Origin: Actinomyces oricola
GTDB taxonomy: Bacteria > Actinomycetota > Actinomycetes > Actinomycetales > Actinomycetaceae
Reading direction: 5' to 3'
Length of the DNA stretch: 64,000 bases
Assembly (NCBI RefSeq): GCF_004104015.1
Contig: NZ_RYFV01000016.1
Coordinates: 1-64,000, forward strand
Part shown: positions 32,597 through 53,216 of the stretch, one piece after another
Position numbering within the stretch: position 1 is the first letter of the stretch
Layout: each line of letters begins with the position of its first letter
Notes under the pieces: model-generated
Databases searched by the model: none
Told to the model about the DNA's origin: nothing
What the model saw: the letters and a program-made list of their open reading frames with translations, nothing else
Position numbers and translations under genes: made by a program

Positions 32597-34438
32597 ATGG
32601 CACGCGCCGTCGGTATCGACCTCGGAACCACCAACTCCGCCATTGCCGTCCTGGAGGGCGGCGAGCCCACCATCATTCCCAACGCCGAGGGCGGCCGCAC
32701 CACCCCCTCCGTCGTCGCCTTCTCCAAGTCGGGCGAGGTCCTGGTCGGCGAGATCGCCAAGCGCCAGGCCGTCACCAACGTCGACCGCACCATCTCCTCC
32801 GTCAAGCGCCACATGGGCACCGGCTGGTCCGTGGAGATCGACGGCAAGAAGTACACCGCCCAGGAGATCAGCGCCCGCATCCTGGCCAAGCTCAAGGCCG
32901 ACGCCGAGGCGTACCTGGGGGAGTCCGTCACCAACGCCGTCATTACCGTCCCGGCCTACTTCAACGACGCCGAGCGCCAGGCCACCAAGGAGGCCGGCAC
33001 CATCGCCGGATTGAGCGTGGACCGCATTGTCAACGAGCCGACCGCCGCGGCCCTGGCCTACGGCCTGGACAAGGGCAAGGAGGATGAGCTCATCCTCGTC
33101 TTCGACCTGGGCGGCGGCACCTTCGACGTCTCCCTGCTGGAGGTCGGCAAGGATGAGGACGGCTTCTCCACCATCCAGGTGCGCGCCACCAATGGCGACA
33201 ACCGCCTGGGCGGCGACGACTGGGACGCCCGCATTGTCGACTGGCTGGTCAGCCAGGTGAAGTCCAAGAACGGCGTCGACCTGTCCAAGGACAAGATCGC
33301 CATGCAGCGCCTCAAGGACGCCGCCGAGCAGGCCAAGAAGGAGCTCTCCAGCGCGACCTCCACCAATATCAACCTGCAGTACCTGTCCATGAGCGAGTCC
33401 GGTCCCATCCACCTCGACGAGAAGCTCACCCGCTCTCACTTCGAGAAGATGACCGCCGACCTGCTGGAGCGCACCAAGGTCCCCTTCCACAATGTCATTA
33501 AGGACGCCGGGGTCAAGGTCGCCGACATTGACCACGTCATCCTCGTGGGCGGCTCCACCCGCATGCCCGCCGTCTCGGAGGTCGTGCGCGAGCTGACCAG
33601 CAAGGAGCCCAACAAGGGAGTCAACCCCGATGAGGTCGTCGCCATTGGCGCCGCCCTCCAGGCCGGGGTCATCCAGGGGGACCGCAAGGACGTCCTCCTC
33701 ATTGACGTCACCCCTTTGAGCCTGGGCATTGAGACCAAGGGCGGGGTCATGACCAAGCTCATTGAGCGCAACACGGCCATCCCCACCAAGCGCTCCGAGG
33801 TCTTCTCCACCGCCGAGGACAACCAGCCCTCGGTCCTCATCCAGGTCTATCAGGGCGAGCGCGACTTCGTCCGGGACAACAAGCCCCTGGGCACGTTCGA
33901 GCTGACCGGCATCGCCCCGGCCCCCCGCGGCGTCCCCCAGATCGAGGTCTCCTTCGACATTGACGCCAACGGCATTGTCCACGTCTCGGCCAAGGACCGC
34001 GGCACCGGCAAGGAGCAGTCCATGACCATCTCGGGCGGCTCCGCGCTGCCCAAGGAGGACATTGACCGCATGGTCAAGGACGCCGAGGCTCACGCCGAGG
34101 AGGACAAGAAGCGCCGCGAGGAGGCTGAGACCCGCAACGCTGCCGAGCAGCAGGCCTACTCCATTGAGAAGCTCCTCAAGGACAACAAGGACAAGCTTCC
34201 CGCCAACGTCCACACCGAGGTCTCCGAGGCCGTCGACGAACTCAAGAAGGCCCTGGAGGGCACGGACGTCGAGGCCGTCAAGTCGGCCCAGGACAAGCTC
34301 TCCACCGTCTCGACCAAGATCGGTGAGGCCATCTACGCCCAGGACCAGGCCGCTGCCGCCTCCGCCGCCTCCGAGGACCCCGCCGCCGACGACGACATCG
34401 TCGACGCGGAGATCGTCGACGACGAGGACACCAAGTGA
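32597..34438 (+). CDS. dnaK: Chaperone protein DnaK (Hsp70)
   Basis: 613 residues. AAGGAG precedes the ATG. The ATPase domain opens with [12 protein letters not shown] and carries [13 protein letters not shown] and [10 protein letters not shown]; the linker and substrate-binding domain begin around [14 protein letters not shown] (near 375). The C-terminus ends in an acidic [14 protein letters not shown] tail typical of actinobacterial DnaK. It works with GrpE and DnaJ encoded downstream, and DnaK is also the corepressor of HspR in Streptomyces. Isoleucine codons mix ATT and ATC throughout, but the last 20 codons switch to ATC only, like grpE and the genes after it. Confidence 0.98.
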
Positions 34439-35106
34439 GCACCCACGAGGCACCCGACCAGGACGAGCCGATCGACCCGGCCCTCGCCGAGGCCGTGGAG
34501 GCCGCCTTCGACGGCGTCGAGCAGGACGAGCTCGACGCCGCTGGGACGGCCCCGGCCGAGACCGCCGAGGCTGTCGCGACCGGCGAGGCCGCCGAGGCCG
34601 CTGAGACCGGCGAGACCGGCGACGGCGAGACCACGGACACGGCCGAGCCCGACCCCCTGGCCGCGGCCCAGGCCGAGGCCGCACAGCTGACGGACGACCT
34701 CGCCCGCGCCCGCGCGGACCTGTACAACCTCCAGCAGGAGTACCAGGGTTTCGTGCGCCGCTCGCGCGAGGCGGCCGCCGGCCACCGCGAGACCGGGCGC
34801 GTCAGCGTCGTCGAGGCGCTCATCCCCGTCCTCGACGAGATCGCGCTGGCCGACCAGCACGGGGACCTCACCGGCACCTTCGCCACCACGGCCACCAAGC
34901 TCGAGTCGATCCTCGGTGAGAAGTTCGGCCTCGTGCGCTTCGGAGAGGTCGGCGACGTCTTCGACCCGATGCTCCACGAGGCACTCATGGCGACCGAGTC
35001 CGACGAGGTCAGCGAACCGACCATCGTACTGGTCCTCCAGCCGGGCTACCGCCTGGGCGAGAAGGTCGTGCGCGCCGCCCGCGTCCAGGTCGCCAACCCG
35101 GCCTGA
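34435..35106 (+). CDS. grpE: Nucleotide exchange factor GrpE
   Basis: 223 residues; GTG overlaps the dnaK stop (GTGA). The first 75 residues are an acidic Ala/Glu/Thr-rich disordered region, then a coiled-coil helix ([21 protein letters not shown], split here: [12 protein letters not shown] and [18 protein letters not shown]) and the beta-wing domain ending [20 protein letters not shown]. It releases ADP from DnaK. Every isoleucine codon I can find is ATC, in contrast to dnaK. The 3' two-thirds is about 92% identical in DNA to the truncated copy at 45852-46299. Confidence 0.96.
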
Positions 35107-35112
35107 GGCCGA

Positions 35113-35147
35113 CCGGGGTCGGGACCCGGCCCGGGTCCCGACCCCGG
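35113..35147 (+). terminator. Strong hairpin between grpE and dnaJ
   Basis: Perfect 15-bp arms (35113-35127 and 35133-35147) with a five-base loop, seven bases after the grpE stop. It may attenuate or process the operon transcript so that dnaK-grpE is more abundant than dnaJ-hspR. A weaker hairpin sits at the matching place after the truncated grpE copy. Confidence 0.65.
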
Positions 35148-35234: not shown

Positions 35235-36227
35235 ATGGCCAGCCAGGACTGGATGCACAAGGACTTCTACGCCGTCCTCGGTGTCGCCAAGGACGCCGAC
35301 TCCGACACCATCAAGAAGGCCTACCGCAGCCTCGCCAAGAAGTACCACCCGGACCGCAACCCCGACGACGCCGTCGCCGCGGAGAAGTTCAAGGAGGTCG
35401 GCGAGGCCTACGCGGTCCTGTCCGACGCCAAGGACCGCAAGCAGTACGACGCCATCCGCTCCATGGCGAGCGGCGGCGCCCGCTTCACCGCCGGTGGTGC
35501 GGGGGGCGGCGGCTTCGAGGACATCTTCTCCATGTTCGGCGGCGGCTCCGGCGGCCAGAACATCGACATCGACGACCTTCTGCGCCAGTTCGGCGGGCAG
35601 CCCAGCCCCACCCGCCGCGGTGGCCAGCCCGGAGGCTTCAGCTTCGGCTTCGGCGGCTTCGGCTCCCAGCCCGAGCCGCGCAAGGGCCCCGACGTCCTCA
35701 CCAACGTGCGCCTGGGCTTCCGCCAGGCCGTCGAGGGAGACACCGTCGAGCTGACGGCGGACGGGCGCACCATCACCACGCGCATCCCGGCCGGTGTCCA
35801 CGACGGCCAGAAGATCCGCCTGCGCGGCAAGGGCCGTCCGGGCCGGGCAGGCGGCGACAACGGGGACATGGTCGTCACGGTCCACGTCGACAAGCACCCC
35901 GTGTACGCCATCGACGGCACGAACCTGCGCATGGACCTGCCCGTCACCCTCAAGGAGGCGGCCCTGGGCGCCACGGTCGAGGTCCCCCTGCTGGATGGCA
36001 CGAGCACACGCGTCAAGATCAAGGCCGGCACCCAGTCCGGCACGGTCATGCGCCTGCGCGGCAAGGGCATCAAGCTGAAGAAGGGCGCCTCGGACCTGCT
36101 CGTCACGGTGCAGGTCGCCGTCCCGCGCAGGCTCTCGGCGCAGGCGAAGGAGGCCCTGGAGGCCTTCGACGCCGCCATGGGGGACACGGACCCGCGCGCA
36201 GCCCTGCGTAAGGAGGCTGCGACGTGA
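35235..36227 (+). CDS. dnaJ: DnaJ-type co-chaperone without zinc finger (copy 1)
   Basis: 330 residues; AGGAGG upstream. The J domain (about 8-75) has the HPD motif at 38-40 (KKYHPDRN). A Gly/Phe-rich region (about 80-150) leads directly into the two-barrel C-terminal substrate domain ([18 protein letters not shown] and following). The four CxxCxGxG repeats of classical DnaJ are missing, so this is a class B/CbpA-like J protein placed in the dnaK operon. It stimulates DnaK ATPase and delivers clients. The stop overlaps the hspR start. ATC-only isoleucine usage. The second copy at 46460 is clearly paralogous. Confidence 0.93.
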
Positions 36228-36655
36228 GCCGCCGTCGTACCGGCCAGGGGCTGGCATTCCTTGCGGAGGACGCGGAGGAGCGCGCGGTCTACGTCATCTC
36301 CGTGGCCGCGGACCTCGCCGGCATGCACCCGCAGACCCTGCGCCAGTACGACCGCCTCGGCCTGGTCTCCCCGGCCCGCGCCTCAGGGCAGGGCCGGCGC
36401 TACTCGCACCGCGACGTCGAGCGCCTGCGCCGCGTCCAGGCACTGAGCCAGGAGGGCGTCAACCTCGAGGGGATCCGCCGCGTCCTCGACCTGGAGCGCC
36501 GGGTCGAGGAGCTCGAGCGCGAGAACCGTCTCCTGCGGCTGCGTGAGGCGGCGGTCCAGCGGATCTTCGCCGCTGCCGCCGACGGCGAGGTCCAGGTCGT
36601 CGCAACCGGTCGACGAGGGCACAGGTCCACGGGCCGACCCGCTGCGGACGCATAG
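36224..36655 (+). CDS. hspR: Heat-shock repressor HspR (MerR family, copy 1)
   Basis: 143 residues from GTG overlapping the dnaJ stop. The MerR helix-turn-helix reads [20 protein letters not shown] then [20 protein letters not shown], followed by a coiled coil ([17 protein letters not shown], then [18 protein letters not shown]). HspR represses dnaK and clpB operons at HAIR boxes and uses DnaK as corepressor, known in Streptomyces. Boxes for it lie before dnaK and both clpB genes in this window. The DNA-binding half is nearly identical to the second copy at 47491. Confidence 0.95.
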
Positions 36656-36761: not shown

Positions 36762-37988
36762 CTACGGCACCGACTCCTCCTCGTCCCCGGGCAGCTCGAG
36801 GACGGCGGTCATCCCTCCGGTGGGATTCGCGCTCAGGCTCAGGTGACCGCCGTGGGCGGTGGCCACGGCGGTCACGATGGCCAGGCCCAGCCCGTGCCCG
36901 GATCCCCGGGTTCGCCCCCGGCCCTCGCCGCGGACGAAGGGCTCGCGCAGGGACTCGACGCTGTCCGGCGCGACCGGGGAGCCGTCGTTGCGGATCGTCA
37001 GCCGCACGCCGTCGGCCAGGTGCGCCATCCCGACAGTGATCCGGCCGCCATCGGTGTTGTAGCGGACCGCGTTACCCAGCAGGTTGGCCACGCTCTGACG
37101 CAGCAGCACCGGGTCGCCCGGGACATGGGCGGGCAGCAGGTGGGTGGACAGTCTCAGCCCGCGCTCGACCATCTGCGGGGCGATGAGCCCCAGGGCGTCA
37201 CGGACCGTGGCCTTCATGTCGACGTCCTCGCGGGCGAGCCTGCCGGACTGGGCGTCGGCCAGGTCCAGCAGGGCGTCGATCGTCTCCCGGTTGGCCCGGT
37301 TGGTCTCCAGCACCCGGCCGAGGACCCGGCGCAGGTCCTCGGCCGAGGCCGTCGGGTCGGACAGAGCGACCTCGATCATGGTCTGGGTCGTGGCCAGGGG
37401 CGTGCGCAGCTCGTGGGAGGCGTTGGCGGCGAAGCGCCGGTGCACGGAGAAGGAGCGTTCCAAGGAGGACAGCATGTCGTCGAAGGTGTCCGCCAGGTCG
37501 TGGATCTCATCACGCGGCCCGGCCAGGGCCAGACGCTGGCTGAGGTCGCCCGAGGCGGCGCGCTTGGCGGCCGTGTTCATCGACGACAGCGGTCGCAGCA
37601 TCCGCCCCGCCAGGACCCAGCCGACGGTGCCGGAGAGCACCACGAGCAGCGCCAGTACGCCGATGGCCGAACGCATGATGCTGCCGAGCAGCTCGAACAG
37701 GTTCGTGTCCACCTGGGTGGCCTCGCTGGTCTGCAAGGCCGGCGTGACGGTGACGTCGCCCGCGGGTGCGCTGATCTCGATACGGAGCGTGACATAGCGG
37801 GTGTAGACGTAGACCAGGGCGATGAGCACCGCGCCGGCGGCCGTCACCAGACCGGCGTAGGTCAGGGTCAGCCGGATGCGGATGCTCAGGCGTCTGGGGC
37901 GACGCGACCGCCTCTGCCGCCCCGAGCGGGTGCCGGTCTGCTGCGACCCGTGCCGCCCGTCGTCGGGAAGGGCCTCCCGCCCGCTCAT
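36762..37988 (-). CDS. Sensor histidine kinase (HAMP/HisKA type)
   Basis: 408 residues from ATG 37988, which overlaps the regulator's stop (ATGA). An Arg-rich N-terminus precedes helix 1 (about 41-61), a short external loop (about 65-100), helix 2 (about 107-127) and a HAMP domain (RMLRPLSSMNTAAKRAASGD). His192 is in ANASHELRTPLA, and ATPase motifs are LLGNAVRYNTDG, LTIRNDGSPV and GSGHGLGLAIV. It is divergent from the lipoprotein-adaptor-ABC genes that it probably controls through the paired regulator. It lies inside the heat-shock duplication unit and shares its ATC-rich codon use. Confidence 0.92.
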   Translation of the reverse strand: MSGREALPDDGRHGSQQTGTRSGRQRRSRRPRRLSIRIRLTLTYAGLVTAAGAVLIALVYVYTRYVTLRIEISAPAGDVTVTPALQTSEATQVDTNLFELLGSIMRSAIGVLALLVVLSGTVGWVLAGRMLRPLSSMNTAAKRAASGDLSQRLALAGPRDEIHDLADTFDDMLSSLERSFSVHRRFAANASHELRTPLATTQTMIEVALSDPTASAEDLRRVLGRVLETNRANRETIDALLDLADAQSGRLAREDVDMKATVRDALGLIAPQMVERGLRLSTHLLPAHVPGDPVLLRQSVANLLGNAVRYNTDGGRITVGMAHLADGVRLTIRNDGSPVAPDSVESLREPFVRGEGRGRTRGSGHGLGLAIVTAVATAHGGHLSLSANPTGGMTAVLELPGDEEESVP

Positions 37989-38644
37989 GCGCTGAACCTG
38001 TAGCCCGCGCCGGGGACCGTCTGGATCACCCACGGCTCACCGAGCTTGCGGCGCAGGTGGGAGATCGTCACCCGGGTGGAGTTGGTGAAGGGGTCCGCGT
38101 TGGCGTCCCAGGCCTTCTCCAGGAGCGTCTCGGCGCTGAGGACCCCGCCCTCGGCCTCCATGAGGACCTGGAGGACCGCGAACTCCTTGGGACTCAGACG
38201 AATGAAGCGCCCGTCTCGGTAGACCTCCCGGCGGAAGGGGTCCAGACGCACACCGTGGGCCTCGATGACCGGAGTGCGTGCGGGTTGGCTGCGCCGCCCC
38301 AGGGCCCGCAGCCGGGCCACCAGCTCGGGGAACTCGAAGGGCTTGGTGAGGTAGTCGTCCGCCCCCAGCTCGAAGCCGCCCACGCGCGCGTCCAGCGTTC
38401 GGGACGCGGTGAGCATGAGGATGCGAATGCCGGGGTGCTCGTCGACCACCCGCCGGCAGACCTCGTCGCCGTGGATGATGGGCAGGTCCCGGTCCAGGAC
38501 GACGATGTCGTAGTCGTTGGTCGCCACCTGCTCCAGGGCGCTGGCCCCGTCACCGACGACGTCGACGGCCATCGCCTCACGCCGCAGCCCGGTGGCGACG
38601 GCCTCGGCGAGATACTTCTCATCCTCCACGACGAGTACGCGCAT
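37985..38644 (-). CDS. OmpR-family response regulator
   Basis: 219 residues from ATG 38644, with AAGGAG upstream and the standard receiver start MRVLVVEDEKYLAEA. Asp51 (IVVLDRDLP) is the phospho-acceptor; the C-terminal winged helix contains LSPKEFAVLQVLMEAEGG and ends VIQTVPGAGYRFSA. It forms an operon with the kinase and is divergent, across 263 bp, from the lipoprotein gene of the exporter cluster. The shared promoter region has no obvious repeat that I can name as its site. Confidence 0.94.
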   Translation of the reverse strand: MRVLVVEDEKYLAEAVATGLRREAMAVDVVGDGASALEQVATNDYDIVVLDRDLPIIHGDEVCRRVVDEHPGIRILMLTASRTLDARVGGFELGADDYLTKPFEFPELVARLRALGRRSQPARTPVIEAHGVRLDPFRREVYRDGRFIRLSPKEFAVLQVLMEAEGGVLSAETLLEKAWDANADPFTNSTRVTISHLRRKLGEPWVIQTVPGAGYRFSA

Positions 38645-38907
38645 TGTCTTGTCTCCTTCGCTGTGGTCTCGGTTGAGCTCGCGCCAGCTCGGCCGGTCCC
38701 GTTGCGCCCCGGCCGAAGCGTCTGCCCCATGTCTACCCGTTTCCGGCCCGCGCTGTCGCGCCCCTCCTGCGCCGACACCGCGTGTTGCCACAACATAAGC
38801 AAATCCTTGAATGCCGCGACAACACCGCCACCGCTTGGCTGTCTTCCGACCGAAGGGGCATCACCGCGCCACCCTCGGCACCGACCTAGACGAAAGGACC
38901 CTCTCTC

Positions 38908-39375
38908 ATGAAGAAGAGCCTCAACACCCGGATCATCACCCGCACCGCCGCGCTGCTGACCTGCGCCGCGTGCGCAGCCGGGCTCATGACCGGATGCTCC
39001 AGCTCCGACACGGACACGGCCGCGGCCTCCGCCTCCGCCACCAGCGCAGACGACTACCTGCTCGAGATGGCCCAGTGCATGCGCGACAAGGGCATCGACG
39101 TCTCCGACCCCGACGCCAACGGCAACATTCAGTTCCCCGAGACCGACGCCGCCTACGCGGCCGCCGAGGAGTGCCAGCAGATCGTCGGCCCCGCTCCGGG
39201 CACGGAGGACCTCTCCAACCCCGAGACGCAGCAGGACCTCGTCCAGGCAGCCCAGTGCCTTCGTGACGCGGGCTACGACGTCCCCGACCCCGAGGCCGAC
39301 AAGGGCCTTCAGCTCAACGGTGACATCCCCCAGGACGTCATGAACAAGTGCTTCACCGATCTTGGGAACCAGTGA
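38908..39375 (+). CDS. Small secreted lipoprotein with repeated QCxRDxGxDVxDP motif
   Basis: 155 residues. GAAAGGA precedes the ATG. A signal peptide with lipobox LMTGC places the lipid-carrying Cys at 30. The mature part has two related segments, AQCMRDKGIDVSDPDANG (about 70) and AQCLRDAGYDVPDPEAD (about 117), each with a Cys, plus further Cys residues that could pair in two disulfides. Such lipoproteins often precede adaptor-ABC clusters in actinobacteria. It is presumably the outermost part of the exporter or a sensor of its substrate; the exact role is unknown. Confidence 0.85.
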   Translation: MKKSLNTRIITRTAALLTCAACAAGLMTGCSSSDTDTAAASASATSADDYLLEMAQCMRDKGIDVSDPDANGNIQFPETDAAYAAAEECQQIVGPAPGTEDLSNPETQQDLVQAAQCLRDAGYDVPDPEADKGLQLNGDIPQDVMNKCFTDLGNQ

Positions 39376-39446
39376 CGCGGCGCCCTTCAGCCAACCGACT
39401 TCTCACGTGGCCGAGCAGCCGCGCAGACATACAGACAGGCACGTAC

Positions 39447-40616
39447 ATGAAATTGACCACCATCTCCACGCAGGACGACGACAGCTCGACCGGCACGGAG
39501 GCAGACATGGGAGCGGTGCGCCGCACCCGGCGTCGGACCTTCCTGGCCATGGGGACAGTCGTGGTCCTTGCCGCGGGCGCGGGTGCAGGCGCCTTCGCCT
39601 TCAAGACCGGTCCCTTCGCCGCCAAGCCGCAGCCGACGGCGTCGACCTTCACCGGCGCCACCGACACCGTCACCAGGGGCGATCTTAAGGGCGAGACCTC
39701 CGTCACCGGCACCCTGCGCTACGCCGATGCGCACAAGCTCAGGTCCGCTTTCGACGGCATCCTCGTCCAGGCGCCCACCTCCGGCACGGTCCTGACCCAG
39801 GGCAATGTCATCTACAGCACGGGCAGCGAGTACGCCTACCTCATGCACGGCTCCATCCCCGCCTGGCGCACCTTCGAGGCCGGGATGGACAACGGCGAGG
39901 ACATCCTCCAGCTCGAGACCCTCCTGCGCGACATGGGCTACTTCGACTATGAGCCCGACAACCACTTCAGCTGGGCCACCACCAGCGCCATCCTGAAGTG
40001 GCAGAAGGACGTCGGGCTGCCCCAGACCGGGACCATCCCCTTAGGACGGATGGTCTTCGTCCCAGGGGACCTGCGCGTGGGGGAGGTCAGTGCCCGAGTC
40101 GGGGACCGTGTCGGCATCGACACCGAGCTCTGCGACGTCACCTCCACCACCCAGGTGGTTGAGTCCAACGTCAAGCTCTCCGACCAGCAGCTCGCCGTCG
40201 TCGACACCGCCGTGACCATCACGCTGCCCGACGCCACGACCACGACGGGCACGATCACCTCCGTGGGCTCCCCCGTCGAGAAGAGCACGAACTCGGGCTC
40301 AGGCGCGGGTGGTAGTGAGACGAAGGAACGGGTCATCCCCATCACCATCTCTCTCGACGACACCTCCGCGACCGCCAACTTCCAGGAGGTCTCGGTCACC
40401 GTCGCCCTGCCCAGCGAGACGCGTGAGGACGTCCTGTCGGTGCCGGTGGGCGCCCTGCTGGCCCTGACCCCCGACCAGTTCGGCGTCGAGATCGTCGAGT
40501 CCAACGGCACCACCCGCAAGGTGCCGGTCACCATCGGACTGTTCGCCGGTGGACGTGTCGAGGTCTCCGGGGACGACATCGCCGAGGGGACCCGAGTGGT
40601 GGTGCCGCAGACATGA
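39447..40616 (+). CDS. Membrane-anchored efflux adaptor with peptidoglycan-binding domain
   Basis: 389 residues from ATG 39447; the upstream open part overlaps no similar protein and has no ribosome binding site. One membrane helix (about 31-51) is followed by beta-rich HlyD/MacA-like segments (VTGTLRYADAHKL, then the LVQAPTSGTVLTQGNVIY stretch). A peptidoglycan_binding_1 motif of about 50 residues (LLRDMGYFDYEPDNHF) is inserted, and a C-terminal barrel follows. It probably links the ABC permease to the wall and channels substrate outward. Its stop overlaps the ABC ATPase start (ATGA). Confidence 0.88.
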   Translation: MKLTTISTQDDDSSTGTEADMGAVRRTRRRTFLAMGTVVVLAAGAGAGAFAFKTGPFAAKPQPTASTFTGATDTVTRGDLKGETSVTGTLRYADAHKLRSAFDGILVQAPTSGTVLTQGNVIYSTGSEYAYLMHGSIPAWRTFEAGMDNGEDILQLETLLRDMGYFDYEPDNHFSWATTSAILKWQKDVGLPQTGTIPLGRMVFVPGDLRVGEVSARVGDRVGIDTELCDVTSTTQVVESNVKLSDQQLAVVDTAVTITLPDATTTTGTITSVGSPVEKSTNSGSGAGGSETKERVIPITISLDDTSATANFQEVSVTVALPSETREDVLSVPVGALLALTPDQFGVEIVESNGTTRKVPVTIGLFAGGRVEVSGDDIAEGTRVVVPQT

Positions 40617-41323
40617 GCTCCATCCTGTCCCTGCGCGACGTGCGACGAACCTACGGGGAGCCGCCCGTAGCCGCCTGCGCGGGCGTGAGCCTGGAGGTCG
40701 ACTACGGCGAGTTCGTCGCCGTAGTCGGCCCCTCGGGCTCAGGCAAGTCCACGCTCCTCAACCTCATCGGCACCCTGGACCGGCCCAGCTCGGGCACCGT
40801 CGAGATCGACGGCGTCGACGTCGGCTCCCTGTCCGACGCCAAGCTCTCGGCCCTGCGCGCCAGCCGCATCGGCTTCGTCTTCCAGCAGTTCCACCTGGCC
40901 GACGGCGTCAACGCGGTTGACAACGTGGCCGACGGCCTCCTGTACAGCGGCATCCCCCGCTCCGAGCGGCGCCGACGCGCCCGCATTGCCCTTGAGCGCG
41001 TCGGCCTGGCCCACCGGCTCGACCACCGGCCCCACCAGATGAGCGGCGGTGAGCGTCAGCGCGTGGCCATCGCCCGGGCCGTCGTCGGCGAGCCCCCGCT
41101 GCTGCTTGCCGACGAGCCCACGGGCAACCTCGACTCCGCCTCCGGGGCCTCGATCGTCGAGCTCCTCCACGAGCTCCATGACCAGGGAACCACCGTCATC
41201 GTCATCACCCACGACAACGAGCTGGCCGCCCAGCTGCCCCGGCAGATCGCCATCCGCGACGGCCGCATCGTGGGGGACTCAAGCCAGAAGGAGGTCGCCC
41301 ATGGTATCCAAGCCGGGTCTTGA
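40613..41323 (+). CDS. ABC transporter ATP-binding protein (MacB type)
   Basis: 236 residues: Walker A GPSGSGKST (near 40), Q-loop GFVFQQFHLADG, signature MSGGERQR, Walker B LLLADEPTGNLD and switch His VITHDNE. Coupled to the adaptor gene upstream and overlapping the permease gene by 23 bp, which carries its ribosome binding site AGGAGG inside this gene. Together with adaptor and permease it makes a MacAB-like tripartite exporter without an outer-membrane part. Confidence 0.94.
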   Translation: MSSILSLRDVRRTYGEPPVAACAGVSLEVDYGEFVAVVGPSGSGKSTLLNLIGTLDRPSSGTVEIDGVDVGSLSDAKLSALRASRIGFVFQQFHLADGVNAVDNVADGLLYSGIPRSERRRRARIALERVGLAHRLDHRPHQMSGGERQRVAIARAVVGEPPLLLADEPTGNLDSASGASIVELLHELHDQGTTVIVITHDNELAAQLPRQIAIRDGRIVGDSSQKEVAHGIQAGS

Positions 41324-42563
41324 CCGCTCCGCTGCCATCGAGGTCGACAAGGCCCGTCACCGCGCCTCGACCCGCCCGCTCCAGCGCTCGCGGCTGCGCC
41401 TGGCCGATGTGCTGCGCCTGGGGGGAACCGGGATCAAGTCCCGCCCTACCCGAGCCTTCCTGTCCGCTCTGGGCATCGCCATCGGTATCGCCGCCATGAT
41501 TGCGGTGGTCGGCATCTCCGCCTCCAGCCGGGCGCAGCTGACCGCCCAGCTCGACTCGCTGGGGACCAACCTGCTGACGGCCTCGGCCGGTCAGGATCTC
41601 TTCGGCAACTCCTCCTCCCTGCCGCAGGACACCGTCGGCAGGGTCCGGCTCATCGACCGTGTCGAGAGCGCCTCAAGCACTGGCCTGGTCAAGAACGCGC
41701 TGGTCTACCGCAGCCCGCTCATTGACAAGAATGCCTCCGGCGGTATCACGACCATGGCGGCGGACCTCTCGCTGCTCGACGTCGTCGCCGGGCAGGTGGA
41801 CCGGGGCACCTGGCTCAACGAGGCCACCGGCCAGTACCCGGCCACGGTCCTGGGGCATACGGCCGCTCAGCGTCTGGGCGTCGTCACTCCGGGCACCAAG
41901 GTGTGGCTCGGCGGCCAGTGGTTCACGGTGGTGGGCATCCTCAAACCGGTGGTCCTGGCCCCCGAGCTCGACTCCGCGGCGCTCGTCGGCCAGGAGACCG
42001 CCACGAGCCTGCTGGGGCACGACGCGAAACCGACGACGGTCTACGCCCGTAGCCAGGACTCCGCCGTCACCCAGGTGCGCGACCTCCTGGCGCCGTCGAT
42101 CTCGCCCCAGGCCCCCAACGAGGTCAAGGTCTCGCGCCCCTCGGATGCGCTGGAGGCCAAGAACGCGGCCGACCAGGCCTTCACCAGCCTGCTGCTGGGC
42201 GTGGGCTCCATCGCCCTGCTCGTCGGTGGCATCGGGGTCGCCAACACCATGATCATCTCGGTGCTCGAGCGTCGTCGGGAGATCGGGCTGAGGCGGTCCC
42301 TGGGGGCGATGCGCGGCCACATCCTCGTGCAGTTCATGGCCGAGGCGCTGCTGCTGTCCACCCTGGGAGGCACCTTGGGCTGTGTCATCGGCATCGGGGT
42401 GACCGCCGGGATGGCGTCCGCGAACGACTGGCCCTTCTCCCTGCCGATCATCGCCGTCGCCGGCGGCCTGGGGGCCACCATCGTCATCGGTGCCCTGGCT
42501 GGCATGTACCCGGCCGTGCGGGCCGCGCGCACGCCTCCGACCGCCGCGCTCAACGCGCAGTAG
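41301..42563 (+). CDS. MacB-type ABC permease
   Basis: 420 residues from ATG 41301 with GGAGG six bases upstream. Cytosolic N-terminus of about 40 residues, helix 1 (AFLSALGIAIGIAAMIAVVG), a MacB periplasmic-type core domain (about 75-285), then three helices (LLLGVGSIALLVGGIGVANT, LSTLGGTLGCVIGIGVTAG and AVAGGLGATIVIGALAGMY), with ERRREIGLRRSLGA in the cytosolic loop. This is the standard four-helix MacB permease. It should export a peptide or amphiphile; the linked two-component system suggests an inducible defence pump. Confidence 0.93.
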   Translation: MVSKPGLDRSAAIEVDKARHRASTRPLQRSRLRLADVLRLGGTGIKSRPTRAFLSALGIAIGIAAMIAVVGISASSRAQLTAQLDSLGTNLLTASAGQDLFGNSSSLPQDTVGRVRLIDRVESASSTGLVKNALVYRSPLIDKNASGGITTMAADLSLLDVVAGQVDRGTWLNEATGQYPATVLGHTAAQRLGVVTPGTKVWLGGQWFTVVGILKPVVLAPELDSAALVGQETATSLLGHDAKPTTVYARSQDSAVTQVRDLLAPSISPQAPNEVKVSRPSDALEAKNAADQAFTSLLLGVGSIALLVGGIGVANTMIISVLERRREIGLRRSLGAMRGHILVQFMAEALLLSTLGGTLGCVIGIGVTAGMASANDWPFSLPIIAVAGGLGATIVIGALAGMYPAVRAARTPPTAALNAQ

Positions 42564-43030: not shown

Positions 43031-43051
43031 GTTGAGTGGAATAGACTCAAG
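43031..43051 (+). promoter_or_regulatory. HAIR-type HspR box upstream of clpB copy 1
   Basis: GTTGAGT-GGAATAG-ACTCAAG lies 53 bp before the ATG, with an extra half-site GTTGAGT at 43061-43067. The 7-base spacer is identical to that before the second clpB, so 20 of 21 positions match between the two boxes. Confidence 0.88.
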
Positions 43052-43104: not shown

Positions 43105-45798
<2,694 letters not shown>

Positions 45799-45851
45799 GG
45801 CTGACTGTGCGAACCGGCCGCGGCCGGGCTGGGCCGGCCGCGGGCTGGGCC

Positions 45852-46299
45852 GGCCGCGGCCCAGGCCGAGGCCGCACAGCTGACGGACGACCTGGCCCGC
45901 GCCCGCGCGGACCTGTACAACCTCCAGCAGGAGTACCAGGGTTTCGTGCGCCGCTCGCGCGAGGCGGCCGCCGGGCACCGCGAGGCCGGCGCCGTCGGCG
46001 TCGTCGAGGCGCTCATCCCGGTCCTCGATGAGATCGAGCTGGCCCGTCAGCACGGGGACCTCACCGGTCCTTTCGAGACCACGGCCACCAAGCTCGAGTC
46101 GATCCTCGGTGAGAAGTTCGGCCTCGTGCGTTTCGGAGAGGTCGGCGACGTCTTCGACCCGATGCTCCACGAGGCCCTCATGGCGGTGGAGTCCAGCGAG
46201 GTCACCGAGCCCGCCGTCGCCATGGTCCTCCAGCCGGGCTACCGCCTGGGCGAGAAGGTCGTGCGCGCCGCCCGAGTCCAGGTCGCCAACCCGGCCTGA
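45852..46299 (+). pseudogene. grpE: 5'-truncated grpE, fused behind clpB copy 1
   Basis: Sequence homologous to grpE begins abruptly at 45852 (GGCCGCGGCCCAGGCC, matching 34659 onward) and runs to the normal stop. The first 75 or so residues and the start are missing. Upstream in frame are two stops (45796 and 45802) and no ATG or GTG before GTG 45946. From that GTG a 117-residue protein could be made, but it would lack most of the dimerising helix, so it is probably non-functional as an exchange factor. Identity with the intact gene is about 92% by eye. It marks the junction of a duplication or insertion event. Confidence 0.9.
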
Positions 46300-46459: not shown

Positions 46460-47494
46460 ATGGCCAGTCAGGACTGGATGACCAAGGACTTCTACGCGGT
46501 CCTCGGCGTCGACAAGAACGCCGACGCCACCGCCATTAAGAAGGCGTACCGCACGCTCGCCAAGAAATACCACCCCGACCGCAACCCCGACGACGCCGCG
46601 GCGGCAGAGAGGTTCAAGGAGATCGGCGAGGCCTATGCGGTGCTCTCAGACTCCAAGGAGCGCCAGCAGTACGACGCCATCCGCTCCATGGCCGGGGGCG
46701 GGGCCCGGTTCACCGCCGGCGGCCCCGGCGGCGGCGCGGGCGCAGGCGGGTTCGAGGACATCTTCTCCTCCATGTTCGGCGGCCAGAGCGGCTCGGTCCG
46801 CTTCGAGACCTCCGGCGGCGCCGGGGAGCCGGACCTCGACGACCTGCTGCGCATGTTCGGCGGCACCCCCAGCCCCACGCGTTCGGGCGGCCGGCCGGGG
46901 CGCTTCGGCTTCGGGAGTTTCGGCACCCCGCAGCCGGTCAAGGGGCCCGACGTGGTCACCTCAGCTACCCTGGACCTGCGCGACGCCGTGGCGGGAACCA
47001 CCGTGGAACTCACGGCTGACGGACGCACCATGAAGGTGCGCATCCCCGCCGGGGTCCACTCGGGCAAGAAGATCCGCTTGCGCGGCAAGGGCCGCCCCGG
47101 CATGAACGGCGGGGAGAATGGGGACATGGTGGTGACCATTAGCGTGGCCAAGCACCCGGTCTACTCCATTGACCCGACTGAACCCACCAACCTGCGCATG
47201 GACCTGCCCGTGACCCTCAAGGAGGCCGCCCTGGGCGCCACCGTCGAGGTCCCCCTGCTGGACGGCTCCACCTCCAAGGTGCGAATCGCCCCCGGGACGC
47301 CGTCGGGCACAGTCCTGCGTCTGCGCGGTAAGGGCGCGGACACCGCCAAGAAGACCGGCGACCTGCTGGTCACGGTGCAGGTGGCTGTTCCCAAGCGGCT
47401 CTCCAAGGAGGCCAAGAAGGCCCTGGAGGCCTTCGACACCGCCATGGGGGGCCTCGATCCGCGCGCCGACCTCATGAGCGAGGCCCGCCAATGA
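46460..47494 (+). CDS. DnaJ-type co-chaperone without zinc finger (copy 2)
   Basis: 344 residues with GAGGAGG upstream. J domain with HPD at 38-40 (KKYHPDRN), Gly/Phe-rich region slightly longer than in copy 1 (extra AGAGG and [11 protein letters not shown] segments), then the C-terminal barrels ([18 protein letters not shown] and following). Again no CxxCxGxG repeats. It mixes ATT and ATC for isoleucine, like dnaK and clpB copy 2, and so looks like the resident gene. Its promoter is unclear: a read-through from clpB copy 1 or a local promoter in the relatively AT-rich 46385-46440 stretch are both possible. Confidence 0.93.
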
Positions 47495-48078
47495 GCCCCC
47501 GGCGCCGCACCGGCCAGGGGGTGGATTTCCTGGCCGACGACGCCGCCGAGCGGGCTGTCTACGTCATCTCCGTGGCCGCGGACCTCGCCGGCATGCACCC
47601 GCAGACCCTGCGCCAGTACGACCGCCTGGGCCTGGTCATCCCGGCCCGCACCAGTGGGCGGGGCAGGCGCTACTCCCACCGCGACGTCGAGCGCCTGCGT
47701 CGCGTCCAGGCCCTCAGCCAGGACGGGGTCAACCTGGAGGGGATTCGCCGCATCCTGGAGCTGGAGCGGCGAGTGGAGCGCCTGGAGGCGGAGAACCGGG
47801 GCCTGCGGCTGCGGCAGGCCGCCGCTGAACGGATCTTCGCCGCGGCGGCCGACGGCGAAGTGCAGGTCGTGCCCGGCCGCTCAGGGCGGCCCGTGGGTCG
47901 CCCCGGCGCGAGCACCATGGGAGGAGCCGGGGTGAGTGCCTCTCGGACAACGGTCGGGGCGGCCGCGGGGAGGGCGGGGCCCGCCCGGCCGGCGGAGGAC
48001 GCCGCCCGCACGGCCACGGGGGCCGCCAGCCGTCCGGCGGCCCCGGGCACCGCCCTGATCCTGCATTACGGCCGGTGA
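47491..48078 (+). CDS. Heat-shock repressor HspR (copy 2, extended C-terminus)
   Basis: 195 residues; ATG overlaps the dnaJ stop. The MerR domain is almost the same as copy 1 ([20 protein letters not shown]), including the recognition region, so both proteins should bind the same HAIR boxes. The coiled coil differs modestly. A 55-residue Ala/Gly/Arg-rich tail is added after residue 140, compared with the 143-residue copy 1, and the extreme C-terminus is different. Two repressors for one regulon may form mixed dimers or respond differently to DnaK. Confidence 0.93.
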
Positions 48079-48304: not shown

Positions 48305-48757
48305 ATGACTCAGCCCCAGTATCCCGGACAGCCCTTCCCTCAGCAGCCGTCCGCCTCCTCCGCTCCTGCTCCGGCCACCAGCCAGTATGCAGCCCAGGGG
48401 CAGTACGCTCAGCCGGGCCAGGCGCAGGCCCCCTACGCCGGTGCCCCGGTTCAGGCCGCCTCAGGGGAGTCCTTCGTCAGCAACCTCATGAACTCCACCC
48501 GCGCCTTCGCCGCCAAGTACGGCAATCTGCTGTTCATTGTGGCCATGGTCGCCTACGGCCTGGACTGGTTCTTCAACGTCATCCTGGCGGTCATGAACCT
48601 CGCCAACGACTACGGCACCACGGGTGCCGATATCGTGCGCTTCTTCTCGACGCTCATTGTCGGCGCCGCCGCCGCCCTGGTCCAGCTCTTCATCTTCCGC
48701 ATGATTATTGAGCTGGTCCGCAACACGGCGCCCAAGGGCGAGGGCCCGCAGGCCTGA
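48305..48757 (+). CDS. Two-helix membrane protein with Gln/Pro-rich N-terminus
   Basis: 150 residues from ATG 48305 (GAAGGAAGA upstream); the longer open frame from 48116 is Arg-rich and unlikely. Residues 1-58 are Gln/Pro/Ala/Tyr-rich (QPQYPGQPFPQQP) and probably disordered and cytosolic. Two helices follow (about 78-102 and 112-137), ending RMIIELVRNTAPKGEGPQA. The pattern is faintly like DUF4282 proteins, but I cannot assign it. It is followed 18 bp later by another membrane protein gene, so the two are likely co-transcribed. Function unknown. Confidence 0.75.
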   Translation: MTQPQYPGQPFPQQPSASSAPAPATSQYAAQGQYAQPGQAQAPYAGAPVQAASGESFVSNLMNSTRAFAAKYGNLLFIVAMVAYGLDWFFNVILAVMNLANDYGTTGADIVRFFSTLIVGAAAALVQLFIFRMIIELVRNTAPKGEGPQA

Positions 48758-48775: not shown

Positions 48776-49522
48776 GTGGCGGGCTCCTACGAGACCGAGG
48801 ACGGTGAGCCGAAGTACGGTCGTCGTCTCAGCCAGGAGGAGCTTGACGCCTACCGCCGTGAGCACCGGCTCCCGGCCCCGGATTCCAGCTCCTCCGGCCG
48901 ACGCCCAACGAGGACTGTCTCGGGCGTCGTCGGCACTGAAGCCGACCCGACTGCCGGGCCCGGCCTCCAGGGGCGGGCCGCACCGGTCGGGACAGGGGAA
49001 TCCACTGCCGCAGGGCCCACGTGGGGTCATGCCGAGCAGACACCGCTCAGACGCTGGCGCCTGCTGGTTGCCGGCCTGATCGTTATGCTGCTGGTGCCCT
49101 TCGCCATGACCGTTGGGGCGCTCCTCTATGTCGTGGAGGGGCCCCTGTCCGCCGGCGCGGCCCTGGGCGAGACCGGTACTGTCTATCTGGAGCAGGGCAG
49201 CAACTGGGCCCTGTATTCCCCGTCACTGGCGGGCTCGATCCTGGAATGCTCAGTGACCGACCCCGCCGGCAACAGCCTTCCCCTGGAGGGTCTGGGGGAG
49301 GGGATTACCAACTACGCCGCTTTTGCCGCATCCACCACCGGGACCTACATCGTGAGTTGTCCCGGTGGGACGACGGGAGTGGTCGTCGGTCCAACTGTGG
49401 ACGTGAGCCGCGTTCCCGCGGCCGGGACTGTGATCCTGGCAGCGGGTGCGTGCTCGCTGCTGGGCTTTGGTCTGACTGTTGCCGGCGGTGTCCGGGCCCT
49501 GAGCTCGCGAAGGCGGCGCTGA
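48776..49522 (+). CDS. Membrane protein with disordered cytosolic N-terminus and small external domain
   Basis: 248 residues from a GTG with GGAGG upstream. An acidic, then Pro/Ser/Gly-rich tail (about 1-92) precedes helix 1 (LLVAGLIVMLLVPFAMTVGALLY, split: LLVAGLIVMLLVPFAMTV). An external domain (about 118-215) with two Cys residues (LECSVTDPAG and YIVSCPGG) follows, then helix 2 (near 220-240) and an Arg-rich end. The external part has an immunoglobulin-like alternation of Thr/Val-rich strands. No family recognised. It lies in the slot where copy 1 of the heat-shock unit carries the kinase and ABC exporter. Confidence 0.75.
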   Translation: MAGSYETEDGEPKYGRRLSQEELDAYRREHRLPAPDSSSSGRRPTRTVSGVVGTEADPTAGPGLQGRAAPVGTGESTAAGPTWGHAEQTPLRRWRLLVAGLIVMLLVPFAMTVGALLYVVEGPLSAGAALGETGTVYLEQGSNWALYSPSLAGSILECSVTDPAGNSLPLEGLGEGITNYAAFAASTTGTYIVSCPGGTTGVVVGPTVDVSRVPAAGTVILAAGACSLLGFGLTVAGGVRALSSRRRR

Positions 49523-49601: not shown

Positions 49602-49749
49602 CACTGAGGCGGCCATCACTGAGGCCGTCTCAGCCATCACTGAGGCGGCCATCACTGAGGCGGCCATCACTGAGGCGGCCATCACTGAGGCGGCCATCAC
49701 TGAGGCCGTCTCAGCCAGCACTGAGGCGGCCCCGGCTATTACCGAGGCG
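49597..49749. repeat. 15-bp minisatellite, eight units
   Basis: The unit GCCATCACTGAGGC(G/C) occurs at 49597, 49612, 49633, 49648, 49663, 49678, 49693 and (with one change) 49714. Two GTCTCA hexamers interrupt after units ending in C. A degenerate tail runs to 49749. The near-identity of units suggests recent expansion. The array fills most of the 301-bp gap 49523-49823; no gene is credible there, although one plus and one minus frame stay open simply because the unit length is a multiple of three. Confidence 0.92.
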
Positions 49750-49823
49750 GCTGGCTGTGGCCCGGCCACTCGGTGCTGCAGGGGCTATCAGGCAGGGTCA
49801 CATGGTCGGCCACATGGTTATGG

Positions 49824-50006
49824 TCACTCGGTGCCAATGGCCTTGTCAGCGGCGTCACGGGCGGCGTCGACCTGGGAGGAGAACTTCCCCCCGGTCGCCT
49901 TCTTGGCGGCCTCACCGGCCTTGTCGAGCACCTGGTCGCTGATCTTCTCGCCCTTCTCGGAGGACAGGGCCCCGGTGGCCGCCTTCTTGAGGTTGTCAAG
50001 TCCCAT
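49824..50006 (-). CDS. MT0933/Rv0909-like small helical protein, antitoxin family (copy 2)
   Basis: 60 residues from ATG 50006 with AGGAGA upstream. It aligns end to end with the protein at 42684: MGLDNLKKAATGALSSEKG, a central AAKKATGGK and a DAARDAADKAI end. Same length, same orientation, same position divergent from clpB. No toxin gene beside it. Conservation of the pair in both heat-shock units points to a functional link with clpB or to simple hitch-hiking in the duplication. Confidence 0.75.
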   Translation of the reverse strand: MGLDNLKKAATGALSSEKGEKISDQVLDKAGEAAKKATGGKFSSQVDAARDAADKAIGTE

Positions 50007-50119
50007 GCGTGGTCTCCTTGTGCGGGTGCCGCAGTCGGGTGACGGCGGTCGCTGCCGATCGTGCCAGGCCAGACCGGTTCCCGCCAGGTAAGGCCCTGGT
50101 CCCCCTTCCCTCCCCCTCT

Positions 50120-50181
50120 CTTCAACGAAATCCTCACAGCACAACGGCCACGGACGTTGTGCTGTGAGGATTTCGTTGGAG
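50120..50181. repeat. REP-like palindromic element, copy 1
   Basis: Perfect 23-bp arms (50123-50145 and 50156-50178) carrying AATCCTCACAGCACAAC flank the 10-base core GGCCACGGAC; pyrimidine- and purine-rich flanks extend the symmetry. The same element in opposite orientation is at 62902-62965. Here it lies between divergent genes, where a terminator would make no sense. Confidence 0.85.
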
Positions 50182-50241
50182 GGGGGAGGGGAGGAGGGGC
50201 AGGAGGGGAGCATGGTGCGCTGCACACAAGCCGCGAACAGA

Positions 50242-50262
50242 GTTGAGCGGAATAGACTCAAG
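50242..50262 (+). promoter_or_regulatory. HAIR-type HspR box upstream of clpB copy 2
   Basis: GTTGAGC-GGAATAG-ACTCAAG lies 72 bp before the ATG, with a weaker half-site GTTGAAC at 50272-50278, mirroring the layout before clpB copy 1. Confidence 0.88.
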
Positions 50263-50334: not shown

Positions 50335-53028
50335 ATGGACACCAACTACACCACCCGCTCCCAGGAGGCGATCTCCGGAGCAATGCAGGCCGCGGCGGCG
50401 GCCGGCAATCCGCAAATCGATACCGCCCACCTGCTCGCCGAGCTCCTGACCCAGGAGGACGGCGTGGCCCTCGGCCTACTCGCCGCCCTCAACCCGGAGC
50501 CGTCCTCGCGCACCACCATTGGCGCGGCCACCCGCCGCATCCTGGCCTCCCTGCCCTCCTCCTCAGGATCCTCGGTGAGCCAGCCCCAGCCCTCACGCGC
50601 CTTCCTGGCCGCCCTGGAGACCGCCGCCACCGAGGCCAAGAACCTGGGGGACGACTACATCTCCACCGAGCACCTGCTCATAGGCCTGGCCGCCGGCCCC
50701 ACCTCCGACCCCGTCGCCCGCCTGCTGCAGGACAACGGCGCCACCGCCGCCGCCCTGCGCCAGGCCCTGCCCACGGTCCGCGGCGGCGCACGCGTGACCT
50801 CCCCCAACCCCGAGGGCACCTACAAGTCCCTGGAGAAGTACGGCACCGACCTCACCAAGGCCGCCGCTGAGGGCAAGCTCGACCCCGTCATTGGCCGCGA
50901 CGCCGAGATCCGCCGCGTCGTCCAGGTGCTGAGCCGGCGCACCAAGAACAACCCCGTCCTCATTGGCGAGCCCGGCGTCGGCAAGACCGCCGTCGTCGAG
51001 GGACTGGCCCAGCGGATCATCGCCGGCGACGTCCCCGACTCCCTGCGCGGCAAGCGCATTATCGCCCTGGACCTGGCCGGGATGGTCGCCGGGGCCAAGT
51101 ACCGCGGCGAGTTCGAGGAGCGCCTCAAGGCAGTTCTCAAGGAGATCAAGGACTCCGACGGCGAGGTCATCACCTTCATTGACGAGCTCCACACCGTGGT
51201 GGGAGCAGGCTCGGGGGCCGAATCCTCCATGGACGCCGGCAATATGCTCAAGCCCATGCTGGCCCGCGGCGAACTGCGCCTGGTGGGGGCCACCACCCTG
51301 GACGAGTACCGCGAGCGCGTGGAGAAGGATCCCGCCCTGGAGCGGCGTTTCCAGCAGGTCTTCGTGGGGGAGCCCTCCGTGAGCGACACGGTGGCGATCC
51401 TGCGCGGCATCGCCCCCAAGTACGAGGCCCACCACCAGGTCACCATATCCGACGGCGCCCTGGTGGCCGCGGCCTCCCTGTCCGACCGCTACATCACCGG
51501 CCGCCAGTTGCCCGACAAGGCCATTGACCTCATTGACGAGGCGGCCTCCCGCCTGCGCATGGAGCTGGACTCCAGCCCCGTGGAGATCGACGAGCTGCGC
51601 CGTCGCGTCGAGCGCATGACCATGGAGGAGTCCTACCTCGCCGAGTCCTTGGACTCCGAGGGCCAGAACGCCGATCCCGCCGCCGCGGAGCGCCTGGAGC
51701 GCCTGCGCGCCGAGCTCGCCGACGCCTCAGAGCGCCTGACCGCCCTCAACGCTCGCTGGGAGGCGGAGAAGGCCGGCCACAACAAGATTGGTGAGTTGCG
51801 CGCCGCCCTCGACGAGCTGCGCACCCGTGCCGACCTGGCCGAGCGCGAGGGCTCCTTCGAGGAGGCCGGGCGCCTGCGTTACGGTGAGATGCCCGCCCTG
51901 GAGAAGCAGATCCGCGACGCCGAGGCCTCCGAGGCCGCCGTCATTGGGCCCGACGGCGTCGCCCGCGAGAGTGCGCCCGAGCCCATGATCGCCGAGAAGG
52001 TCGGCGCCGGCGAGATCGCTGAGGTTGTCGCCTCCTGGACCGGCATCCCCGTGGGCCGCCTGCTGCAGGGCGAGACCGCCAAGCTCCTGGAGATGGAGTC
52101 CGTCATTGGCCGGCGTCTCATTGGCCAGAAGACGGCTGTGGCCGCCGTGGCCGACGCCGTGCGGCGCTCGCGGGCGGGCGTGTCCGACCCCGACCGGCCC
52201 ACCGGTTCCTTCCTCTTCCTGGGGCCCACCGGCGTGGGCAAGACCGAGTTGGCCAAGGCCCTGGCGGACTTTTTCTTCGACGACGAGCGCGCCATTGTGC
52301 GCATTGACATGTCCGAGTACTCCGAGAAGCACTCCGTGGCTCGACTTGTGGGCGCCCCTCCCGGGTATGTTGGTTACGAGGAGGGCGGGCAGCTCACCGA
52401 GGCCGTGCGGCGACGCCCCTATTCGGTGGTCCTGCTCGATGAGGTGGAGAAAGCCCACCCCGAGGTCTTCGACATCCTCCTGCAGGTCCTCGACGACGGG
52501 CGCCTGACCGATGGCCAGGGCCGTACCGTGGATTTCCGTAACACGATCCTGGTGCTCACCTCCAACCTGGGTTCACAGTTCCTCATTGACCCGTTGCTCA
52601 GCCCCGAGGAGAAGCGCAATGAGGTCATGGCCAGGGTGCGCGCGGCCTTTAAGCCCGAGTTCCTTAACCGCCTGGACGACACTCTTGTTTTCGATCCTCT
52701 GAGCAAGCAGGAACTGGGGCGGATCGTGGAGATCCAGCTGGTAAAGATGGCTGACCGCCTGGCCGACCGTCGTCTCACACTCACGGTGACTGATGCGGCC
52801 CGCGCCTGGCTCGCCGACGAGGGCTACGACCCCTCCTTCGGGGCCCGGCCTTTACGTCGCCTGGTTCAGCGCCAGATCGGGGACGAGCTGGCCAAGATGA
52901 TCCTGGCCGGGGAGGTGCTCGACGGACAGGAGGTCGTCGTTGATCTCAGTCCCGACGGCGCCCACGCCGGTCTGGTTCTCACCGCCCGCGGGGAGGCGTG
53001 GGTGCCCAGCGCCACCAGCGCCGTGTGA
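50335..53028 (+). CDS. ATP-dependent disaggregase ClpB (copy 2)
   Basis: 897 residues from ATG 50335 with a near-perfect AAGGAGG five to six bases upstream; the open frame to 50164 covers the promoter region. Domain plan as in copy 1: N domain, NBD1 GEPGVGKT, M domain, NBD2 GPTGVGKT. Variation is concentrated in the N domain (about 60-150) and the M-domain tip ([13 protein letters not shown] against SIGDEAADPAA). It mixes ATT and ATC for isoleucine and is the probable resident gene. Both copies keep all ATPase motifs, so both should be active. Confidence 0.97.
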
Positions 53029-53053
53029 GGCTGACTGTGCGAACCGGCCGCGG
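52936..53053 (+). repeat. 118-bp segment identical at both clpB 3' ends (copy 2)
   Basis: Identical to 45706-45823. After it, this copy continues into a degenerate run of GGCTGGGCCGG(T/G)-type repeats (53053-53140) rather than grpE sequence. Confidence 0.95.
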
Positions 53054-53175
53054 ACTGGGCCGGGTCGGCTGGGCCGGTAGCGAACCGGCTGGGCCGGGTC
53101 GGCTAGGCCGGTAGCGAGCCGGCTGGGCCGGCCGCGGGAGGCCGCGCTCGGCCTGCGCGTGACCCCTGTGGGCCG

Positions 53176-53216
53176 CGGGCGGGTTCCTCGGCAGCATCTG
53201 CCGAGGAACCCGCCCG
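53176..53216 (+). terminator. Strong hairpin terminator after clpB copy 2
   Basis: Perfect 19-bp arms (53176-53194 and 53198-53216) with loop CAT, followed by TCTTCGTTGT, one of the few hairpins here with a T-rich tail. The 358-bp gap 53029-53386 otherwise holds GGCTGGGCCGG-type repeats and two GCAGGAGGG-type motifs before the TetR gene; no gene is seen. Confidence 0.85.

Follow-up and report, generated by a model that had tools for sequence, protein, structure and literature searches.

The HspR/HAIR regulon, in which a dnaK-grpE-dnaJ-hspR operon is joined by clpB, has been described for Streptomyces, mycobacteria and bifidobacteria (PMC8223512, PMC9004370), and in mycobacteria DnaK binds the C-terminal region of HspR, acting via its tail (PMC10415612). 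Extra protein-quality-control genes that were gained horizontally and stand beside the host's own are known from islands of the tLST type (PMC8407380, PMC8290217), and horizontal gain has also been suggested for ClpI, an Hsp100 protein of Actinomycetota beyond the usual ClpB and ClpC (PMC10149685). The locus described below is of a known kind, although its arrangement is new. Within the window, by which we mean the whole 64-kb stretch of DNA that was analysed, the series grpE-dnaJ-hspR-cargo-MT0933-like gene-clpB occurs twice in tandem, with paired genes that are 75–90 % identical in DNA. From comparison with related genomes, we consider it roughly 75 % probable that a lineage related to G026 and G036 supplied, by horizontal transfer, a heat-shock unit that now stands in tandem before the native one. 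Among the literature matches listed, and as far as the excerpts of those papers reach, no tandem dnaJ-hspR-clpB pair was found.

Layout and gene content of the tandem locus

The first-pass annotation of this DNA had proposed that the locus is present twice, which was confirmed by direct repeats aligning units 1 and 2 in register and by the identities of the paired genes. Profile matches assigned most of the genes to families. The annotation had left out the dnaK gene (32597–34438) that heads unit 1; a second dnaK copy is absent from the 64-kb window. The features are as follows:

32433..32515, + strand: three HspR boxes (HAIR) upstream of dnaK, starting at 32433, 32469 and 32497 (motif scan)
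32597..34438, + strand: dnaK (Hsp70), native over most of its length (tree and profiles)
34435..35106, + strand: grpE1 (GrpE), putatively imported; clusters with G036/G026
35235..36227, + strand: dnaJ1 (DnaJ and DnaJ_C), putatively imported (tree), without zinc-finger motif
36224..36655, + strand: hspR1 (NF047375), putatively imported (tree), without hydrophobic C-terminal tail
36762..38033, − strand: cargo A histidine kinase (family match); nearest G026
37985..38791, − strand: cargo A response regulator (family match); nearest G025, next G026
38908..39375, + strand: cargo A lipoprotein-like gene, no family; 'lipoprotein' is the name given by the first-pass annotation
39438..40616, + strand: cargo A adaptor with peptidoglycan-binding domain (family match); nearest G026
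40613..42563, + strand: cargo A ABC ATPase and MacB/FtsX-type permease (ABC_tran, MacB/FtsX); for the permease, G026 is nearest by path, G035 by identity
42684..42866, − strand: MT0933-like 60-aa gene, copy 1 (PF14013, MT0933_antitox)
43032..43050, + strand: exact HAIR box upstream of clpB1 (motif scan)
43105..45798, + strand: clpB1 (ClpB domains); nt 1 to ~480 G026/G036-like, core with G012/G038, last 93 bp equal to clpB2 (trees, profiles)
45824..45851, no strand: GC-rich joint between clpB1 flank and the inside of grpE (sequence comparison)
45852..46299, + strand: fragment derived from grpE (grpE′), in an open frame but lacking the N-terminal part and the usual start (direct repeats, GrpE)
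46460..47494, + strand: dnaJ2 (DnaJ and DnaJ_C), read as native (tree)
47491..48078, + strand: hspR2 (NF047375), read as native, with hydrophobic C-terminal tail
48305..48757, + strand: cargo B protein 1, weak DUF4282 match (21.5 bits against a cut-off of 27); best relative G033, 54 %
48776..49522, + strand: cargo B protein 2, no family
49824..50006, − strand: MT0933-like 60-aa gene, copy 2 (PF14013)
50243..50261, + strand: HAIR box upstream of clpB2, with a C/T change within the first arm (motif scan)
50335..53028, + strand: clpB2 (ClpB domains), read as native (trees)

Unit 1 is headed by dnaK and runs grpE1, dnaJ1, hspR1, kinase and regulator (minus strand), lipoprotein-like gene, adaptor, ABC ATPase, permease, MT0933-like gene (minus strand) and clpB1; unit 2 consists of the grpE fragment, dnaJ2, hspR2, the two B proteins, the MT0933-like gene (minus strand) and clpB2, after which tetR and NadE follow. 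The hspR of unit 1 is found behind dnaK-grpE-dnaJ, that of unit 2 behind just dnaJ and the grpE fragment, and both 60-aa genes are divergent from clpB. Both HspR proteins scored above the cut-off of NF047375; profile searches gave no family match for the lipoprotein-like gene or for cargo B protein 2. The second grpE had been called truncated, and its N-terminal part is indeed gone, yet an open frame (45805–46299) retains almost the whole GrpE domain (profile positions 14–164 of 165), with the first in-frame ATG, GTG or TTG 47 codons in, at 45946. CxxCxGxG zinc-finger repeats are missing from both operon DnaJ proteins (35235–36227 and 46460–47494). An array of 15- and 21-bp repeats (49595–49767, ATCACTGAGGCGGCC type) separates cargo B from the second MT0933-like gene and starts within a perfect 23-bp inverted repeat (49556–49606), and directly upstream of the clpB2 HAIR box is a long inverted repeat (50094–50207; 56-nt arms, 80 % complementary, 2 nt spacer), a 23-base arm of which had matches, among 301 loci, solely in this window's own loci.

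Alignment of the two units at the DNA level gave identities of 449/497 for the grpE part, 787/978 for dnaJ, 351/426 for hspR, 2283/2681 for clpB and 133/178 for the 60-aa gene; at the protein level these were 247/327 for DnaJ, 116/141 for HspR and 777/894 for ClpB, values that are far above chance and, judged from the sequences, far too low for an assembly echo. Identity is also uneven. A 118-bp tract, made up of the final 93 bp of clpB1 and the adjoining 25 bp downstream, is 100 % identical to its counterpart at the end of clpB2 (45706–45823 and 52936–53053), and the coding part of this run was matched in 0 of 20000 permutations. At the right joint, the 3′ flank of clpB1 is fused to the inside of grpE, and in grpE′ stretches that are 98–99 % like grpE1 alternate with stretches at 83–84 % that are nearer to other species; single patches came out weak in permutation tests (829 and 1468 of 20000). 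In hspR, a run of identity at nt 66–133 is stronger (55 of 20000) and may reflect conversion or constraint. We read the grpE patchwork and the identical clpB ends as the probable result of exchange between the copies, whichever of duplication and import came first.

Phylogenetic origin of the two units

The species tree, built from the two genes gyrB and rpoB, placed this species with G033 (support 99, starred) and rejected a clade with G026/G036 (p-AU 0.004), and NadE, 2.4 kb downstream of clpB2, is 80–81 % identical to G033/G018 vs 72–74 % to G026/G036. The left part of unit 1 behaves differently, in that grpE1-dnaJ1-hspR1 cluster with G026/G036, as do the initial ~480 bp of clpB1; DnaJ1 and HspR1 are 90–91 % and 93–95 % identical to their counterparts in G036/G026. 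In the dnaJ+hspR tree, copy 1 joins G026/G036 (support 100, starred) next to G007/G044, and both a grouping of copy 1 with G033 and the two copies as sisters were rejected, the latter at p-AU 2.7e-5. In the free tree, copy 2 is placed apart from G033, within a starred set of 18 rows that includes G003, G004 and G029; its grouping with G033 is not rejected (p-AU 0.26). As the species tree also places G026/G036 next to G007/G044 (support 92), the position of the G026/G036 dnaJ-hspR genes matches the expected one, so hidden paralogy, by way of an old duplication and differential loss, is not needed and was disfavoured.

For clpB, the outcome depends on the part of the gene considered. Over nt 1–480, copy 1 groups with G026 (support 95, starred) and sister copies are rejected (p-AU 0.0006); in this 5′ tree, copy 1, G026 and G036 form a three-row clade with a support of 35, which rises to 100 (starred) once G008 is included. 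Over nt 481–2560, copy 1 groups with G012/G038 (support 96, starred), a clade with G026/G036 had a p-AU of 0.024, such that the core does not follow these genomes, and the test does not reject the two copies as sisters (p-AU 0.155). The paralogues are consequently not each other's closest relatives for dnaJ+hspR and the clpB 5′ part, with sisterhood left standing for the clpB core only. According to affinity profiles, the left switch lies within the final 130–210 alignment columns of dnaK and the right switch at nt 450–480 of clpB1; the first MT0933-like gene is nearest to G045 and others, not to G026. Because the affinity of the stretch that begins near the 3′ end of dnaK and reaches to nt ~480 in clpB1 is unlike that of gyrB, rpoB, NadE and dnaK of the same genome, it points to import: unit 1 appears to be foreign over ~9.3 kb (~34.3–43.6 kb) and mosaic towards its right end, and unit 2 would be the native one. 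The donor itself is not among the sampled relatives.

Some of these features could also arise from tandem duplication of one native unit within the lineage, with subsequent divergence and reciprocal cargo loss and without transfer: the units share order and orientation, the flanks are native (dnaK on the left, tetR and NadE on the right), 118 bp at the clpB ends are identical and a clpB core sister pair is not rejected. This is nevertheless quite improbable given the rejection of sister copies for dnaJ+hspR and for the clpB 5′ part, and the clustering of copy 1 with G026/G036 against the species tree. A history in two steps, whereby an old native tandem duplication was followed by replacement of the 5′ part of unit 1 with foreign DNA, via homologous recombination at dnaK and clpB, deserves more weight and is possible at somewhat less than even odds. 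It would suit the sharp affinity switches inside dnaK and clpB1, the unrejected core pair and the fact that grpE′ is partly unlike grpE1 and nearer to other species; however, the clpB1 core groups with G012/G038 and not with clpB2, and a single import of an already mosaic donor unit gives the same pattern in fewer steps. The genome is a draft of 78 contigs and a 118-bp identical tract could mislead short reads, such that an assembly artefact or a mixed culture had to be weighed as well. This we regard as highly improbable, as most genes differ by 13–25 % between the copies, which speaks against collapse or echo, the assembly would have to contain two independent chimeric joins, the contamination estimate is just 0.43 % and a similar state with two hspR genes is present in the single-contig genome G025. 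Import of unit 1 beside a native unit 2 is the reading we carry forward; the different origins of the units, and the difference in HspR tails described below, had been missed by the first-pass annotation, and what had been taken for a repeated module with exchangeable cargo is accordingly now read as a heat-shock unit of largely foreign origin beside a native one.

Interval cargo and rarity among relatives

The locus was taken from 48 relatives and the genes of the window were mapped onto it, with hspR and clpB lying on one stretch in 43. The gap between these genes ranged from 2490 to 18115 bp (median 9958) and held the full A block, from kinase to exporter, in 16 of the 43 relatives. One or both B proteins were present there in 39, including 22 with the pair; many of these matches were weak (often 27–50 % identity). 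The full A block was accompanied by at least one B protein in 15 relatives, four of which (G009, G013, G017 and G031) had both full sets within one unit, and three had neither the full A block nor any B protein. Cargos A and B are, on this comparison, both common inhabitants of one interval, with each unit here holding one of them. The suggestion that the cargo is exchangeable is left unsupported by these single-unit relatives with both cargos in one interval, and was dropped as a cause. An MT0933-like gene is present in the interval of 39 of the 43 relatives, so this 'antitoxin'-like gene would seem to be a lasting neighbour rather than part of a mobile toxin-antitoxin system.

The earlier expectation that relatives carry one unit was well supported. 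This genome was the only one of 49 in the genus with two ClpB proteins at E-values up to 1e-200, each of the other 48 having one, and strong HspR matches numbered no more than one in 47 of the 49. Across 213 genomes of the family, two HspR proteins at E-values up to 1e-20 were detected in this genome and in G025, at most one in the remaining 211 and none in six; two ClpB proteins at E-values up to 1e-200 were found in three of the 213 (this genome, G101 and G156) when at most four candidates were scored per genome. The second ClpB-like protein of G101 and G156 is 56 % identical and located ~1.5 Mb and ~0.5 Mb away, respectively, for which reasons an old family-wide ClpB duplication was rejected.

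The nearest parallel is G025, assembled as one contig, where dnaK-grpE-dnaJ-hspR is followed by a DUF4282 gene, an S9 peptidase, a transposase-like gene and then a second block comprising the last 20 codons of dnaJ, a second hspR, the A block, MT0933 and the sole clpB. The 20-codon remnant matches dnaJ1 at 80 %, and this second hspR would appear to be an independent, partly decayed parallel to the tandem in the window. In the corresponding locus (L038, ~10237–12377), the second hspR has upstream of it the unit-1-type dnaJ remnant and a transposase-like ORF (HTH_Tnp_1, HTH_21). The sister of G025 by gyrB/rpoB, G011, has one hspR and lacks the A block in the stretch fetched; taken with the second block of G025, this indicates that an hspR-bearing block of this kind probably entered the genus at least twice. 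Members of the family almost always have just one copy of the core chaperone genes tested, and here a foreign set including its repressor stands beside the native one. More broadly, the hspR-clpB stretch is a variable interval (2.5–18.1 kb in 43 relatives), whose conserved ends can serve exchange between species.

Regulation and comparison with known systems

HspR1 and HspR2 agree at 108 of their 124 shared residues. HspR2 (195 aa) extends to a hydrophobic tail, before which HspR1 (143 aa) ends, as do the proteins of G026 and G036. Such a tail was found in 27 of 36 HspR proteins from other loci; among 50 rows of the genus it was present in 22 by a hydropathy rule and in 31 by a motif rule, with the G015 row unreadable, and both rules agreed in scoring HspR1, G026, G036 and G033 as tail-less and HspR2 as tailed. 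The tail is probably ancestral and has probably been lost more than once, including in G033. Considering the role of DnaK in mycobacteria, HspR1 and HspR2 may respond differently to it. A proteasome link of the tail was also considered: a 20S beta model had no match here, and as the control genomes likewise had none above the cut-off, making this a weak control, the search says little.

HAIR boxes precede dnaK, clpB1 and clpB2, which agrees with the proposal of a merodiploid chaperone/repressor module and makes two HspR and two ClpB proteins on one regulon a natural prediction. In the whole genome, the exact pattern TTGAGY-N7-ACTCAA occurs in five places: dnaK has two such sites upstream, clpB1 and clpB2 have one apiece, and the fifth precedes a third Clp gene, which we read as ClpC from its sequence. 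The last of these boxes (contig C5 of G000, 31262–31280) is shortly upstream of the ClpC-like gene, and ClpC may also be under HspR in this genome. Allowing up to one mismatch gave 19 rows in the genome vs six for a reversed control; at up to three mismatches, sites in the window were not above chance (8 vs 5.3, with 19 of 100 shuffles reaching 8), and the case for HAIR control is built on the exact sites and their places. In relatives, a perfect match was found in 46 of 49 clpB rows, and sites with up to two mismatches in all 46 stretches that show the start of dnaK. By comparison, none of 48 dnaJ rows had a HAIR box within 260 bp, and the same is true of dnaJ2-hspR2, now behind clpB1. No sigma-70-like site was detected at 45750–46500, promoter and terminator scans at the joint found neither element, and folding predicted hairpins downstream of both clpB genes.

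Under the import reading, each clpB would be repressed by HspR at its own HAIR box, and HspR1 and HspR2, with their near-identical DNA-binding parts, would act on the same boxes before dnaK, the clpC-like gene, clpB1 and clpB2, so that two repressors would share one regulon. HspR1 would be made from the dnaK operon without the tail through which DnaK acts in mycobacteria, whereas the tailed HspR2 would depend on transcription that continues past clpB1 or on a weak promoter that escaped detection. The likely effect would be more ClpB and DnaJ on heat shock and a repressor pool that is less dependent on DnaK. A bolder and rather doubtful extension is that gene transfer created a switch with two settings, in which a tail-less, DnaK-blind HspR and a tailed, DnaK-sensing HspR act on one HAIR regulon, with feedback via the dnaK operon for HspR1 and via clpB1 for HspR2, and in which hspR blocks are traded between species via the conserved dnaK/dnaJ and clpB ends; if true, such trading would rewire the heat-shock response within the genus.

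It is also conceivable, if somewhat less than an even bet, that one of the two units, whether 2 or 1, is a passenger heading for loss and has no added function. The missing usual start of grpE′, the lack of a nearby HAIR box or sigma-70-like site for dnaJ2, the reduction of G025 to one clpB and just 20 codons of its second dnaJ, and the occurrence of the state in very few species are all in keeping with this. On the other side, open frames and motifs are intact in both copies, and dN/dS (NG86) is 0.23–0.39 for the grpE, dnaJ, hspR and clpB pairs (0.85 for the 60-aa pair), although most of the divergence between the copies may predate the transfer, so that dN/dS is no proof of retention. With unit 1 taken as imported, the locus offers a natural test of how tailed and tail-less HspR function within the same cell, and of whether selection maintains an extra ClpB or recombination has produced it for a short time.

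Compared with known systems, the locus shares with transmissible chaperone islands of the tLST type a probable horizontal origin of the extra quality-control genes; here, however, these would be a copy of a near relative's core operon, repressor included, that stands in tandem at the native site. No transposase or integrase was seen among the window proteins scanned, a subset of ORFs, and there is no tRNA in 30–58 kb. ClpB1 scored 782 bits against ClpK and 761 bits against ClpG, where the cut-off is 1900, and neither was its best match. Extra Hsp100 genes and horizontal gain are likewise points of similarity to ClpI, but both genes here are ClpB, 87 % identical, and not of the intermediate ClpB/ClpC class. 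The closest system is the HspR/HAIR regulon of Actinomycetota itself, with which the locus has the genes, their order, the MerR-type repressor and the HAIR operators in common, and from which it differs in possessing two complete dnaJ-hspR-clpB sets of apparently different origin, a dnaJ2-hspR2 pair detached from the dnaK promoter, and one tailed and one tail-less HspR.
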